Of a stretch of 14,386 nt of DNA, positions 3,679 through 9,400 are shown piece by piece (positions within the stretch are counted from its first letter, which is position 1; each line of letters starts with the position of its first letter). Both the position numbers and the translations under genes were made by a program. Under the pieces are notes generated by a model. It saw only the letters and a program-made list of their open reading frames with translations, was not told where the DNA came from and made no database searches. This DNA is from Methanoregulaceae archaeon (GTDB taxonomy: Archaea; Halobacteriota; Methanomicrobia; Methanomicrobiales; Methanospirillaceae), in NCBI GenBank assembly GCA_013331215.1, contig DUGU01000115.1, positions 1 through 14,386 on the forward strand. Reading direction: 5' to 3'.

Positions 3679-6600
3679 ATGAGATTTACGAAGCATCTGG
3701 CACTGTTCTTCATGCTCTCCCTCGCAGTCGTCGGACTGGCGAGCGCAGCGGGCGTGGGAACATTTTCTCTCGAGCAGACAAAGTCTGCCGACGTGGGCCA
3801 GATTGGCGTTGCAACCCTTTACATGGACAACACGTGGCAGCCGCAGGCTGACGACGTGTGGGTCACTGCGAAGTGGGACGGCGCCGTTCTTGGCTACATC
3901 AGCACTGACTGGAAGGTCGGGAACTCCGTTTCGGCAACGCCGAACGGCACGAACTCGCTCTTCCTCCAGATGGCTGACCTGACGAACAAGTATGGCAACG
4001 GCAAGATCGCCATCGCTGACATCAACTTCAAGCCGCTCACGACGGGCTCCTCGCCGCTGACGGTGACGATCGATCATGTCCGCGGTCACACCGGTGTCGA
4101 CGAGACGAACTTCACCGACATGACGGCGTCGGCCGTCGCGACGCAGGGCACCTTCGCGGTGGGCGGCAACGTCACCCCGACGCTCACGGTTCCGACCGTC
4201 GTCACGCCGACAGGCAACGTCACGGTGACGCCGACGGGCAATGTCACGGTGACGCCGACGGGCAATGTCACGCCGACGGTGCCGACGGTCGTTCCGACGG
4301 GCATTCCTGTTGGGAACCCCAAGGCGATCCTGAAGGCGGGCGACACGGTCTTCATCGGCGAGTATGGTCTTGACCTCTCGGCGCTGGGCGTTGCCGACGG
4401 CACGACCCTGGGCTGGTTCCAGGCCGGGTCGAACGTCGCGACGAGTTCGCCTGACGACACGCTGATCGTCTCGAGCGCGAAGGCGTTCAACGTCGTTCCG
4501 GGAACCCGTGCGGGTGCCTGGTACAACCTGAACAACAACCGTGCCCTGGCCATCAACGTCAAGGACCCCTCGCTCAACGTGCGCGTCTGGGACGTGCAGT
4601 CCAACAAGGATGTTACGGGCAAGACCGTGACGGCCGGCCGGCTGCTCTCGTTCCGCATTGACTCGAACCTCGACTCCGTCTACTCGCAGCGCGGTACCGC
4701 CGCGGGCGTGACGATCAAGGTCAAGGACAAGGCGGGCAACGTCTACGCGTCGCTGATCGACAACACGGGCGCCCAGAACAGCCTCGTCGTTCCGGTCACC
4801 TCGTCCTCGATGCTCGTTGCGGGCAAGGGCACCAACGCCTCGATGTGGGACACGGCCAACGCGAACTACAAGACGGGCGAGTACAAGGTCTGGGCCGAGT
4901 CGAACCTGAACGGGATCAAGGACAACTACAAGGACCCGTCGGGTGCTGACTACACCGGCAAGACCATCACGAGCCAGTACAGCCTGACCATCGGCCAGGA
5001 CGTGCTGACGCTTGTCGCGAACACCGACGTCGCGGTCGTTCGGAACAACGACTTCGCCGTGACCATCACGGGCCGGCCGAACCAGGCGTACAACCTCTGG
5101 CTCTCCGGCACGAGCGACATGGGTGGCTCGGGCAACCAGCCGCCGCTGATCAAGGAAGGTCAGACGGGCGCGAACCTCTCCGACCCCGCGACGGGCACGT
5201 ATGTCTTCGACAGCACGGGCCGCACGGTCGCGGAGGATGTCCCGGTCGCCCCGGCCAACACCACGAACCCGTGGTATGCCAAGGTCACGACCGACGACAA
5301 CGGCAAGCGCACGATCGGTTTCTCGACCGATGCGAACACCAAGGACAAGACCTACACGCTCCGTGTTCAGTGGACGGACCCGGCAACGGGGAACTTCAAG
5401 TATGACACGGTGAAGGTCGAAGTCGTCAAGGGCGCGGTCACGATCAAGACGAGCGGCAACGCGTCGTTCTTCCTGGGCGAAGAGATCACGCTCTCGGGCA
5501 CGGACACCGACTCCGAGACGATCCACCTGTTCATCACCGGTCCGAACCTGCCGAGCGGCGGGGCGAACCTCGCGGACCTGCTGCCGGTCGTCGATGGTGA
5601 CGTAGCAACCTTCACCACGGAGAACGTCGCTGCGGACAACACGTGGGAGTACAAGTGGGCGACGGCGAACCTGAACGTGGACGCCGGGTCGTACACCATC
5701 TACGCCGTTGCGACGCCGAACAACCGTGACAACCTCCGGTCGGCCAAGTATGCAACGGCCTCGCTGATCATCAAGAAGCCGTTCGTGACGGCGAACGCCT
5801 CCGCGGCGGTCGTTGCGAAGGGTGACGAGCTCAAGATCACGGGCATTGCCGAGGGCAAGCCGGCGAACCTGGCGGTCTGGCTGTTCGGCACGAACCTGTA
5901 TCTTGCCGACACGGCAACGGTCAAGGACGACAGCACGTATTCGTACACGGTCTCGCGCGGCACGACGCAGAACCTGGCGACAGGCCAGTACTTTGCGGTC
6001 CTCCAGCACCCGATGTACAACGGCATCTTCGATGTGGCCGAGGTCGTTGAGGGCGGTATCACGCGTGTCTACGACACGTCGGGCAACTTCTTCATCGCGG
6101 CCGGTCCGGGCCGTCTGCAGGGCTCCGACGCGGCCAACGCGCTGGTGAACCTGATCAACGGCGCGAACATCGACGACACCTACACCAAGCTGTCGTTCGC
6201 GGTCGAAGAGGCGACCATCAACATCGCGGCGGTCCCCGACAAGCATGTGGGCGACACGTTCGATGTCACGGGCACGACCAACCTCGCCCCGGGGGACAAC
6301 CTCCTGGTGACGATCACGTCGAGCTCGTTCAAGCCGACGGACAAGTCGCAGGCCTCGGGCTTCAGCGGCGTCTCGGGCTCGACACCGGTGGTCAAGGGCG
6401 CACAGGGCAACACGTTCAACTTCACGGTGAACGCGGGCCAGTTCCAGCCTGACACCTACGATGTCAAGGTCGAGTCCGTCGAAGCGGCCTCGAGTTCGAC
6501 CGGGACGTTCAACGTCGTCGCGGGCCAGGGCAACGTTACCGTCGCCCCGACCACGCCGGCATCGAACGTGACGACGAACGTCACGTCGACGGCGGCAACG

Positions 6601-6729
6601 GCGACGGCAGCGACGACGGCGAGCAACGGCACGGCAACGGCCACGCCGACCCGGTCGCCCGGATTCGGTGCGGTCGTGGCCCTCGTCGGCCTCGGCGCAG
6701 TCGCGGTCCTCGTCCTCCGCAGAGAGTAA
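3679..6729 (+). CDS. S-layer-type surface glycoprotein with N-terminal cohesin-like domain, DUF3821-like region and PGF-CTERM anchor
   Basis: Likely a major cell-envelope protein of 1016 residues. The ATG at 3679 is chosen because AGGTGA at 3669-3674 precedes it by 4 nt and a clean signal peptide follows (residues 1-23, ending ASA). Residues about 25-161 resemble a cohesin-type beta-sandwich: a VGQIGVATLYMDN strand, a middle 'VWVTAKWDGAVLGYIS' strand pair, 'GKIAIADINFKPLTTGSSPLTV' and a closing QGTFAV strand. A Thr/Pro linker (165-210) with VTVTPTGN repeats leads to a DUF3821-like region (about 211-440, starting near ILKAGDTVFIGEYGLDLS). Ig-like segments lie at about 441-584, 585-698, 700-843 and 844-948. 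A Thr/Ala/Asn-rich stalk (950-993) ends in PGF (994-996), a hydrophobic helix and RRE, which is the PGF-CTERM signal processed by archaeosortase in known cases. Many NxT/S sequons suggest N-glycosylation. The S-layer role and anchor are well supported; the cohesin assignment rests on pattern matching by eye. Confidence 0.9.
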   Translation: MRFTKHLALFFMLSLAVVGLASAAGVGTFSLEQTKSADVGQIGVATLYMDNTWQPQADDVWVTAKWDGAVLGYISTDWKVGNSVSATPNGTNSLFLQMADLTNKYGNGKIAIADINFKPLTTGSSPLTVTIDHVRGHTGVDETNFTDMTASAVATQGTFAVGGNVTPTLTVPTVVTPTGNVTVTPTGNVTVTPTGNVTPTVPTVVPTGIPVGNPKAILKAGDTVFIGEYGLDLSALGVADGTTLGWFQAGSNVATSSPDDTLIVSSAKAFNVVPGTRAGAWYNLNNNRALAINVKDPSLNVRVWDVQSNKDVTGKTVTAGRLLSFRIDSNLDSVYSQRGTAAGVTIKVKDKAGNVYASLIDNTGAQNSLVVPVTSSSMLVAGKGTNASMWDTANANYKTGEYKVWAESNLNGIKDNYKDPSGADYTGKTITSQYSLTIGQDVLTLVANTDVAVVRNNDFAVTITGRPNQAYNLWLSGTSDMGGSGNQPPLIKEGQTGANLSDPATGTYVFDSTGRTVAEDVPVAPANTTNPWYAKVTTDDNGKRTIGFSTDANTKDKTYTLRVQWTDPATGNFKYDTVKVEVVKGAVTIKTSGNASFFLGEEITLSGTDTDSETIHLFITGPNLPSGGANLADLLPVVDGDVATFTTENVAADNTWEYKWATANLNVDAGSYTIYAVATPNNRDNLRSAKYATASLIIKKPFVTANASAAVVAKGDELKITGIAEGKPANLAVWLFGTNLYLADTATVKDDSTYSYTVSRGTTQNLATGQYFAVLQHPMYNGIFDVAEVVEGGITRVYDTSGNFFIAAGPGRLQGSDAANALVNLINGANIDDTYTKLSFAVEEATINIAAVPDKHVGDTFDVTGTTNLAPGDNLLVTITSSSFKPTDKSQASGFSGVSGSTPVVKGAQGNTFNFTVNAGQFQPDTYDVKVESVEAASSSTGTFNVVAGQGNVTVAPTTPASNVTTNVTSTAATATAATTASNGTATATPTRSPGFGAVVALVGLGAVAVLVLRRE
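4219..4283 (+). repeat. 24-bp in-frame tandem repeats coding VTVTPTGN linker
   Basis: Two near-identical 24-bp units (4219-4242 and 4243-4266) are followed by a partial third unit and preceded by a diverged one. They encode Thr/Pro linker units, each with an NVT sequon. The copy number could change by slippage, altering the distance between the cohesin-like domain and the rest of the S-layer protein. Confidence 0.75.
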
Positions 6730-6737
6730 CCCAATCT

Positions 6738-6750
6738 CCCCTCTTTTTCG
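6738..6750 (+). terminator. Possible T-rich terminator after the S-layer gene
   Basis: A pyrimidine-rich run with five T residues lies about 15 bp after the S-layer stop codon. Archaeal RNA polymerase can terminate at short U-tracts without a strong hairpin. No stable stem is visible before it. Confidence 0.35.
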
Positions 6751-7053
6751 CACCGACAGTCTTCTGCAGGCTCATTGCTCGAGCCCCCGCAAGGACCGTC
6801 CATCATGATGTAAGGCTGACGATCCGCAGCCTCCGATGACACCCCGATCGAAGCCCGATACCCCGGTAATTTTCTTCATAATCGCAGACGCGCATGAATC
6901 CCCTGTACCGGCACGGCGAATGGCCGGCCATCGACAACCGCTCCGGGAAGCAAAAAAACGATTATTCCCGGCACGAATATCTCGCAAGCCCGCTGGCGGG
7001 GATTCATTGAGCGAAGGTCCGCGGACGAATCGGGAATCGCCGTCCCCTCCGGC

Positions 7054-7080
7054 ATTAAATACATAAAGGAGTATATCAAT
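7054..7080 (+). promoter_or_regulatory. AT-rich promoter candidate upstream of the dockerin protein gene
   Basis: ATTAAATACATAAAGG and a second box AGTATATCAA lie in an AT island and could serve as TATA boxes, giving a leader of roughly 70-90 nt. An alternative TTTTATG at 7141-7147 lies about 27 bp before the ATG at 7172 and would give a nearly leaderless transcript. The sequence alone does not decide between them. Confidence 0.35.
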
Positions 7081-7171
7081 CTACGCCCGGAACATCTCCG
7101 TGATTCGTGTCGATTATTACCTTCGGAAATAACACAACTGTTTTATGGGGTGAACTTCAAGTTTAGATCGA

Positions 7172-9400
7172 ATGGAATGCAGCCCTTTTTTCCGGATCGG
7201 TCTCCTCGTGCTAGCCGCCATGATCGCGACGCCGATCGTGTCAGCGGCGACCGTCCAGATCTCCGGTCCGACTGTAATCTCATCCCCCGGGACGTACGTC
7301 CTGACCCAGGACATCGCCACCGGCCAGAGCCCGGCGATCGCGATCCGCTGCTCCAATGTTGTGTTCGACGGCAACGGGCACACCATTGACGGCGTGGACG
7401 CGGGGGGATCGTTCGGGATCCAGGTCAACAACGGCAATACGCCGCTCACGGGCGTCACCGTGAAGAATGTGCGGCTTACCGACTGGTATTACGGGCTCTA
7501 CTACAAGTACGCGAACGGCGGCCGGATAGAAGCCGTACGGGCACAATCGAACCAGAACGCGGGCATCTGCCTCGCCTACGCGAACGACAACGTGCTCACC
7601 GGCTGCACCGCGACCGGGAACGAGCAGGGCATCCTCCTCTCCTTCGACTCGTCGCGAAACCGGATCGAGTCCTGCACGATGTCCTCCAACGACGACGCCG
7701 GGCTCTGGCTCGCCTCGACCGGCCGCGGCACGAACGGCATCACCTACGACTCGACCGGGAACCGTGTCACCGGGAACACGGCCACCGGCAACGGCAGGAT
7801 GGGGCTCTACGTCGACTTCTCGGCGGGGAACGTCCTCTCGTCGAATACGGTCTCGGGTAACGGAGACTACCAGATCTTCCTCGACTATTCCTCCAGCAAT
7901 CGGATCGAGTCGAACACCGTCTCCGGCGGTACGGAGCAGGGAGTGTACCTCTACGATGCGGACAGCTGCACGATCTCGGGCAACACCGTGTCGGGAGCCG
8001 GGGACTACGGGATCTACATCTCGTCGACGACAGGCCTGACCATCAGCGGCAATACCCTCACCCATAACGGTGTCGGCGGAATCGCCCTGAACGGCGAGGC
8101 GACCATTCCGGCCGACGGCAATCGGGTCGTCTCGAACACTATCCGCGATAACGGACAGCACGGGATCTTCATCTGCAGGTCGAGCGGCAACACCGTCACG
8201 AACAATCTCTTCTCGAACCCCGTCAACGCCCTGTACGGTGGCAGCTGCGGCCCGAGCACCTGGTCGACTCAGGCGCAGGCGGGACCCTCGATCGTGGGCG
8301 GCCCCACACTCGGCGGCAACTTCTGGGGCACTCCTTCCGGGACCGGCTTCTCCGAGACGGCCGCCGACGCGAACCGCGACGGGATCTGCGACCGTCCCTT
8401 CGCGATCAACTCGGGCAACTCGGACCCCCTCCCGCTGGCACGGACCTCCGGGACTCCGACGGCGATCCCGACGACGACGTCCACGGTATCCCCAACGCCC
8501 ACGGCGACGTTAACGCTCTCGTCCACCCCCTCGCCGACCGCTACCGTGACTGCGACACCCCCGGCGGCGCAGGCCCCGTTCCCCGGAGCCCACAACCTGC
8601 CCTGCACGGTCGAGGCCGAACAGTTCGACGCCGGCGGCGATGGTGTCGCGTACCACGACTATGAATCCACGAACCTCGGGACCAACACGGCCCTCCGTCC
8701 CGGCGTGGGCGTGGACATCGACACCGAGACTGGGACCACCAACGTCGGGTACACCCGCGATGGCGAGTACCTCAAGTACACGGTCGATGCGGCCAGCGTG
8801 GGCAGCTTCTCCCTCGCACTGCGGGCCGCGAACCCCGACCCGGCCGCGAAGGCGTTGAAGGTCTATCTCGACGGCGCCTCCGCAGGACAGGTATCGGTCG
8901 GCCCGACCGGTGGCTGGAGCACCTATCAGGACTTCCCTGCGTCCGCTCCCATTGTCTTCCCCGCGGGCCGCCACGTCGTGACCATCGCGTTCGAGGGGGT
9001 CGGCCGGGTCAACCTTGACCGTCTCGCCTTCTCGGCCGCCGCTCCGACCGTCACGACGCCGGCACCGGCGCCGACAACGATCGCGCCCACGACCATGGTC
9101 ACCCCCCCGCTGGTCATTCTTCCCTCGCTCACACCGACGGCGACGCCCACCGCACGACCCGAGCTGCAGAACCCCACGCTTCCGGCCCTCCCCGGCGCGA
9201 CCGGCTCGCCGCGTGACTCCGACAGCAATGGCCGATATGAGGACGTCAACGGCAACGGGCGTACCGACTTCGGCGACGTGACGCTCCTCTTCAACAACCT
9301 CAATACGGTCGGGAGCACCTACCCGGTCCAGACCTTCGACTTCAATGGAAACACCCGGGTCGATTACGGCGACGTGACCGTGCTCTACGGCCAGCTCTGA
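7172..9400 (+). CDS. Secreted NosD-type beta-helix protein with CBM6-like module and C-terminal type I dockerin
   Basis: A 742-residue extracellular protein. The ATG at 7172 gives a good signal peptide (residues 1-26, ending VSA). Residues about 40-420 form a right-handed parallel beta-helix of the NosD/PbH1 type, with repeated 'GNTVSG' and 'NRIESNTV' turns and the NFWG...DGICDRPF end motif typical of archaeal NosD-like surface proteins. After a Thr/Pro linker (430-465), residues about 470-622 look like a family 6 carbohydrate-binding module (start VEAEQFDAGGDG, then VGYTRDGEYLKYTV, end VNLDRLAF). A second linker leads to a type I dockerin with two calcium loops, D691-D702 (DVNGNGRTDFGD) and D723-D734 (DFNGNTRVDYGD), each with Asp/Asn at positions 1, 3, 5, 9 and 12. 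There is no PGF-CTERM, transmembrane segment or other anchor, so surface attachment would need a cohesin partner; the S-layer-type protein upstream is the obvious candidate. No catalytic motif was recognised, so the ligand is unknown. No good Shine-Dalgarno lies near the ATG (GGGGTGA is 18 nt away). Confidence 0.9.
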   Translation: MECSPFFRIGLLVLAAMIATPIVSAATVQISGPTVISSPGTYVLTQDIATGQSPAIAIRCSNVVFDGNGHTIDGVDAGGSFGIQVNNGNTPLTGVTVKNVRLTDWYYGLYYKYANGGRIEAVRAQSNQNAGICLAYANDNVLTGCTATGNEQGILLSFDSSRNRIESCTMSSNDDAGLWLASTGRGTNGITYDSTGNRVTGNTATGNGRMGLYVDFSAGNVLSSNTVSGNGDYQIFLDYSSSNRIESNTVSGGTEQGVYLYDADSCTISGNTVSGAGDYGIYISSTTGLTISGNTLTHNGVGGIALNGEATIPADGNRVVSNTIRDNGQHGIFICRSSGNTVTNNLFSNPVNALYGGSCGPSTWSTQAQAGPSIVGGPTLGGNFWGTPSGTGFSETAADANRDGICDRPFAINSGNSDPLPLARTSGTPTAIPTTTSTVSPTPTATLTLSSTPSPTATVTATPPAAQAPFPGAHNLPCTVEAEQFDAGGDGVAYHDYESTNLGTNTALRPGVGVDIDTETGTTNVGYTRDGEYLKYTVDAASVGSFSLALRAANPDPAAKALKVYLDGASAGQVSVGPTGGWSTYQDFPASAPIVFPAGRHVVTIAFEGVGRVNLDRLAFSAAAPTVTTPAPAPTTIAPTTMVTPPLVILPSLTPTATPTARPELQNPTLPALPGATGSPRDSDSNGRYEDVNGNGRTDFGDVTLLFNNLNTVGSTYPVQTFDFNGNTRVDYGDVTVLYGQL

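Follow-up and report, generated by a model that had tools for sequence, protein, structure and literature searches.

An S-layer glycoprotein with a predicted cohesin module beside a dockerin gene in Methanomicrobiales: a candidate surface display system

Introduction

Can the surface layer (S-layer) of a methanogen itself act as the dock for secreted proteins? The question is raised by two adjacent genes in a stretch of 14,386 nucleotides from Methanoregulaceae archaeon (assembly GCA_013331215.1, contig DUGU01000115.1, called C245 in our set), which we refer to as a whole as the window. The first gene encodes an S-layer glycoprotein whose N-terminal domain was read as a cohesin in a preliminary description of the locus, and the second encodes a secreted protein with a C-terminal dockerin. 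The parent genome assembly measures 2.15 Mb and is 66.5% complete. Cohesin and dockerin modules have long been catalogued in archaeal genomes, and their job has been unclear. Here, a lattice-forming S-layer protein carries a cohesin and is found with a conserved candidate partner gene and with receptors, adaptors and cargo throughout the genus. If the pair binds, archaeal cohesins would gain a concrete function, and the methanogen would have a route for loading proteins onto its surface layer, in effect a natural ordered display platform. Taken as a whole, the observations are probably best explained by capture of the neighbouring dockerin protein by the S-layer cohesin, as one level within a wider display system.

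Results and Discussion

The S-layer protein and its cohesin module

The features of the locus are collected in Table 1. The S-layer protein scores 876 bits against the NCBIfam S-layer glycoprotein model NF041431 (equivalog cut-off 600) and terminates in a PGF-CTERM signal; it is a member of this family. DUF3821 covers residues 220–415. The family match starts only at residue 217, and the first 215 residues or so (signal peptide, a domain at 24–162 and a linker) lie outside it. The linker contains four N-glycosylation sequons, at residues 164, 180, 188 and 196. A model of the full-length protein was poor (predicted local distance difference test, pLDDT, 54.2; predicted template modelling score, pTM, 0.30) and was used solely to note that residues 162–297 fall under pLDDT 50.

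Table 1. Features of the S-layer/dockerin locus, in window coordinates
Feature	Position	Strand	Basis
S-layer glycoprotein gene, 1016 residues, N-terminal cohesin module	3679..6729	+	NF041431, DUF3821, PGF-CTERM
Signal peptide, residues 1–23, MRFTKHLALFFMLSLAVVGLASA	3679..3747	+	boundary set by eye
Predicted cohesin module, type C, residues 24–162	3748..4164	+	
Thr/Pro-rich linker, residues 163–219	4165..4335	+	sequence count
S-layer body, residues 217–1016	4327..6726	+	NF041431 match range
PGF-CTERM anchor signal, residues 990–1015	6646..6723	+	TIGR04126, E 2.5e-7
T-run past the S-layer stop codon, terminator-like	6744..6748	+	alignment A8; putative function
Promoter/5' leader region preceding the dockerin gene, conserved	7056..7171	+	five-species alignment; putative function
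Secreted beta-helix/CBM6/dockerin protein, 742 residues, no anchor seen	7172..9400	+	
CBM6 module, residues 513–621	8708..9034	+	PF03422, E 3.4e-16
Dockerin type I domain	9236..9391	+	PF00404, above cut-off
Calcium loop 1, DVNGNGRTDFGD	9242..9277	+	
Calcium loop 2, DFNGNTRVDYGD	9338..9373	+	

The preliminary description had placed a cohesin at about residues 25–161 and proposed a structural comparison. Structure prediction of residues 24–162 yielded a beta-sandwich with the cohesin fold, and the placement is thus borne out. By direct sequence search the domain is elusive. A Pfam scan of the whole S-layer protein detected no cohesin at E ≤ 5, phmmer and profile searches of the Protein Data Bank (PDB) sequences with the domain gave no cohesin match, and the Pfam cohesin model matched the isolated domain weakly (E 0.054; 14.1 bits, cut-off 24.1). 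Profile–profile comparison with 17 Pfam-matching cohesins established the homology: the S-layer type alone scored 79.3%, its family (termed A1 here) 97.1% and a control segment 0.7%. Two relatives, L243 (type A, 34.0 bits) and L046 (type B, 24.7 bits), exceed the Pfam cut-off. The N-terminal domain has 18 homologues in the databases at E ≤ 0.01, 16 of which also carry DUF3821, and because it is conserved in these 18 proteins we dismiss chance as its source. As far as prediction goes, the identity of residues 24–162 as a cohesin is settled.

The dockerin protein

The second gene product was described beforehand as a secreted beta-helix/CBM6-like protein with a complete two-loop dockerin and without an anchor of its own, and each part of this agrees with our results. 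It matches NosD/beta-helix models as well as CBM_6, and the Dockerin_1 model (PF00404) matches residues 689–738 with E values of 4.0e-8 to 4.3e-8. Both calcium loops are complete at 12 residues each, as expected of a type I dockerin. No membrane segment was seen; past residue 40 the highest 19-residue mean hydropathy is only 1.15, and the protein therefore appears to lack an anchor. N-glycosylation sequons are depleted in this protein and its six orthologs (7/7; 0–4 observed, about 10 expected from shuffled sequences). Among 14 other dockerin proteins or pieces, L007 alone is equally depleted, and the sequon count of the S-layer protein is near the shuffle expectation.

Conservation of the gene pair

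The dockerin gene has orthologs in all seven genomes of the genus. In the six genomes other than that of the window the likely ortholog was taken as the best match to the beta-helix part (60–93% identity), and all seven orthologs terminate in a dockerin. In six of the seven (G000 and G214–G218) an S-layer gene terminates directly upstream. The contig of G217 holds the entire S-layer gene upstream of the dockerin gene, and in G214, G215, G216 and G218 the upstream S-layer end sits at one extremity of the contig. The contig of G213 begins 388 bases before the dockerin gene, within the intergenic gap. In 6/7 genomes a type-C cohesin is seen where an S-layer gene starts. In G214, G215, G216 and G218 the contig stops inside or just past the cohesin domain, and we infer the fusion from the start of the protein; matching upstream genes also back this in G215 and G218.

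Breaks of the contigs in the S-layer gene recur in G214–G218 (L260/L123, L035/L124, L252/L121, L033/L125 and L262/L034). They fall in or just past the cohesin region and close to the gene end, and may reflect near-identical copies or variation within the population.

The two genes could also be neighbours by chance or through shared ancestry of the locus, with independent roles. The separate leader and the T-run between them would fit this, as would the conservation of other neighbours of the locus (genes labelled AMMECR1 and tgt by eye, L034). We regard it as very unlikely, since all seven orthologs retain the dockerin and these dockerins form a distinct clade. Proximity of S-layer and dockerin genes also recurs at S-layer paralogues that have no cohesin, which adjoin dockerin matches in G213 (C208; L111, L223) and G215 (C32; L112).

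The S-layer-adjacent dockerins as a separate class

The majority of the dockerins in the window's genome are of an ordinary kind that reads LYFNQMTWIAANEP...FDYNGNGRIDFADVVWLFNHL. The dockerins next to the S-layer gene read FNNL...YP...FDFN.N.RIDY.DV..LY, with that of G215 the most divergent. In a tree of 99 dockerin segments from 12 genomes, the seven S-layer-adjacent dockerins form one clade (support 100/96). The tree holds segments covering at least 49 of the 61 model positions, and shorter matches were excluded. Its 92 other segments represent the best matches of the 12 genomes, not the full set, and many forks are unresolved. L023 was included through its HMM (hidden Markov model) reading, and L011 and L224 were left out. 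A dockerin profile (A3) was built from the same seven sequences, so that a ranking with it would be circular, and the tree was used instead. A clade is expected of orthologs; what counts is the changed linker. The linker carries 'YP' in 7/7 S-layer-adjacent dockerins and 0/92 others, and a tryptophan in 0/7 compared with 88/92 others.

Cohesins and dockerins across the order

A search of the Methanomicrobiales for further dockerins had been proposed in the preliminary description. We surveyed 232 genomes of the order with the A1 cohesin profile and counted dockerins at E ≤ 1e-3. Dockerins occur in 115 of the genomes and Pfam cohesins in 53, mostly in low numbers. Cohesins of the A1 family reach E ≤ 1e-20 in eight genomes only, the seven of the genus and a relative, G197; eight further genomes match the profile at 2.4e-12 to 3.6e-6. 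The eight strong genomes are also the eight richest in dockerins, with 19, 27, 16, 31, 15, 18, 22 and 32 matches (15–32, compared with at most 13 elsewhere). Within the genus the range is 15–31, and every genome there has additional cohesins, many of them on stalks anchored in the membrane. The window's genome, with its 19 dockerin matches, has eight cohesin-like domains of the A1 family, and the single matched pair suggested at the outset is too small a picture. With so many candidates on both sides, the S-layer cohesin could bind other dockerins too.

The A1-family cohesins split into types A, B and C. Besides the S-layer protein, their carriers are short secreted proteins that combine a stalk rich in Thr and Pro with a hydrophobic segment at the C-terminus. 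The C-terminal hydropathy peak is at least 1.85 in 15/17 of the non-S-layer carriers checked, the exceptions being L037 and L057. Tandem pairs of cohesins occur in L002, L046, L047, L061 and L062, and no protein with three or more cohesins was found among those read. Two database proteins, P0010 and P0021, combine cohesin and terminal dockerin on one chain and resemble adaptor scaffoldins; P0010 has two cohesins plus the dockerin.

Further arrangements and possible relatives were also seen. Residues ~355–480 of P0010, between the second cohesin and the carbohydrate-binding module (CBM), could, judged by eye, be another cohesin-like domain, which would make three on this chain. L038 (1–1503) and L059 (1348–2886) combine a cohesin and, by eye, a fasciclin-like domain in one anchored protein. 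Weak cohesin relatives lie in open frames of 807–1355 residues in other families of the order (L049–L056), and one Pfam cohesin lies inside an open frame of 9331 residues (G120:C1:1096348).

The genome G197 is the sole strong A1 genome outside the genus. It has three type-A and three type-B cohesins and no type C, and its best S-layer protein has no cohesin. Of its 35 dockerin matches 30 were read, and none of these is of the S-layer-adjacent type. Within the genomes read, only the genus showed type-C cohesins and dockerins of the special clade. Because of the conserved adjacency, the distinct dockerin clade and this joint absence in G197 as read, the proposed pairing of the S-layer cohesin with the adjacent dockerin has good, though indirect, support from the genomic evidence.

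Alternatively, the S-layer cohesin may serve as a common docking site for the many ordinary (WIAANEP-type) dockerins, with the adjacent protein as one client among them or bound elsewhere. The S-layer protein presumably outnumbers all other surface proteins, the S-layer-adjacent type is just one of the 19 dockerin matches in the genome, and type-C cohesins of other proteins group by genome with the S-layer domain (L029/L041 and L037/L035), which hints at common partners. Set against this, types A and B accompany the ordinary dockerins in the genus and in G197, whereas type C has the same range as the special clade among the genomes read. We consider a general dock a realistic possibility that falls short of being the probable one. 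The S-layer cohesin may bind the adjacent dockerin, others, or both.

It could also be that the cohesin-fold domain serves the assembly or spacing of the lattice instead of docking, and that the dockerin protein uses another cohesin. This is unlikely. The domain has close homologues on single-pass stalk proteins that lack any lattice part and on the dockerin-bearing P0010, and the gene is conserved next to a dockerin gene.

A number of observations weigh against a dedicated pair in the S-layer. P0010 joins a type-C cohesin to an ordinary dockerin, so that type C is not necessarily reserved for the S-layer-adjacent dockerin, and type-C cohesins are also found on other non-S-layer proteins. Next to the special clade in the tree stand three dockerins of other genes, from G214, G217 and G218 (96/90). 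The co-occurrence of cohesins and dockerins represents two lineages, the genus and one relative, and not independent events. The complete fusion was read through in only two of the seven genomes (G000 and G217), and G213 (74% complete) yielded no cohesin fused to an S-layer protein. Lastly, the two genes are separated by 442 bases that contain the T-run and the conserved leader, and they are for this reason probably separate transcription units; a single operon was rejected on the same grounds.

Cargo and the cellulosome question

We scanned 18 dockerin open reading frames (ORFs) or C-terminal pieces of the window's own genome, each of at most 554 residues; for longer proteins this covers the C-terminal side. 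The repeat and binding domains found were CBM6, beta-helix, NHL, PKD, PQQ, RCC1 and PD40. Enzyme-type matches were limited to one GDSL lipase, one subtilase (S8) and one papain-like protein (C1 peptidase), and three of the 18 pieces had a dockerin without another domain. No glycoside hydrolase family was found in these 18 at E ≤ 1e-3, and a plain cellulosome was rejected on this account. The domain content of the cargo points to adhesion and surface decoration over the digestion of polysaccharides.

Proposed mechanism

In the mechanism that we propose, the cohesin would be presented at the outer N-terminal end of the S-layer lattice protein, on a flexible and probably glycosylated linker, and the C-terminus would be retained at the membrane through the PGF-CTERM signal. 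The known biology of PGF-CTERM proteins is the basis for this placement of a membrane-held C-terminus and an outward N-terminus. The neighbouring gene product, secreted without an anchor, would be caught from outside, its C-terminal dockerin binding the S-layer cohesin with the involvement of calcium. This would put the beta-helix and CBM6 on display at the cell surface, where they would most likely bind sugars, sheath or matrix, or partner cells. Type A and B cohesins on their membrane-anchored stalks would take up the numerous remaining dockerin proteins, and the proteins with both cohesin and dockerin would be adaptors in a genus-wide display system.

A stronger form of this proposal takes the crystalline S-layer as the scaffoldin. 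One cohesin per protomer would make a dense, ordered docking array around the entire cell with a dedicated class of dockerin, to which stalked cohesins and adaptors would add further tiers: an adhesion-type, two-dimensional archaeal counterpart of the cellulosome, not a digestive one. We put this forward tentatively, as nearly but not quite an even prospect.

Comparison with known systems

SdbA and OlpB are clostridial anchoring scaffoldins with SLH domains. Such scaffoldins attach a cohesin protein at the S-layer via the SLH domains, according to the available part of PMC9012536. There, as proposed here, a cohesin tied to the S-layer takes up dockerin proteins at the cell surface. From that account, the clostridial scaffoldin is a separate protein with SLH repeats, whereas here the cohesin lies within the S-layer protein, one per chain, and the scanned cargo has no glycoside hydrolase match. 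In Archaeoglobus fulgidus a cohesin and dockerin form a working binding pair (PDB 2xdh); the portion of PMC9705933 consulted describes neither a fusion to the S-layer nor a multi-protein scaffold.

Another archaeal likeness is to anaerobic methanotrophic archaea (ANME). Scaffoldin-like proteins are described in ANME, and ANME-2c is credited with S-layer plus dockerin proteins (PMC9012536, in part); ANME-1 and ANME-2a are reported to have high numbers of cohesins and dockerins (PMC5244752, in part). As far as these excerpts go, the shared traits are the large archaeal sets, scaffoldin-like cohesin and dockerin proteins and, in ANME-2c, the link to the S-layer. ANME-2c is described as joining the S-layer to the dockerin, whereas the genus studied here, a methanogen genus, joins it to the cohesin, the complementary half.

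Among the NF041431/DUF3821 S-layer glycoproteins of Methanomicrobiales, residues 217–1016 constitute a full member. The N-terminal cohesin and linker are an addition that other members, in G213 (C208), G215 (C32) and G197, do not have. In titles and abstract openings of open-licence papers, a scope without subscription papers and preprints, we recognised no S-layer/cohesin fusion in methanogens. The locus had been ascribed to a methanogen. This holds for the genus, in which McrA is present in 4/7 genomes, including all three good ones; it is not seen in the window's own 66.5%-complete assembly.

Other features of the locus

T-runs occur at a roughly matching place in four other species of alignment A8. 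In the leader of the dockerin gene, TTACCTTCGGAAATA is exact in six of the seven orthologs and altered in G218, and no further exact copy is present in the window or in the other loci compared. Rfam at its gathering thresholds gave no match in the window, leader included. Upstream of the S-layer gene, positions 8–1444 of the window encode a protein rich in Thr that has one hydrophobic segment and, by eye, a C-terminal domain. In L033, L035 and L040, relatives with 41–44% identity precede the S-layer start. Judged by eye, the C-terminal part of the protein in the window is similar to the corresponding part of the cohesin protein P0013.

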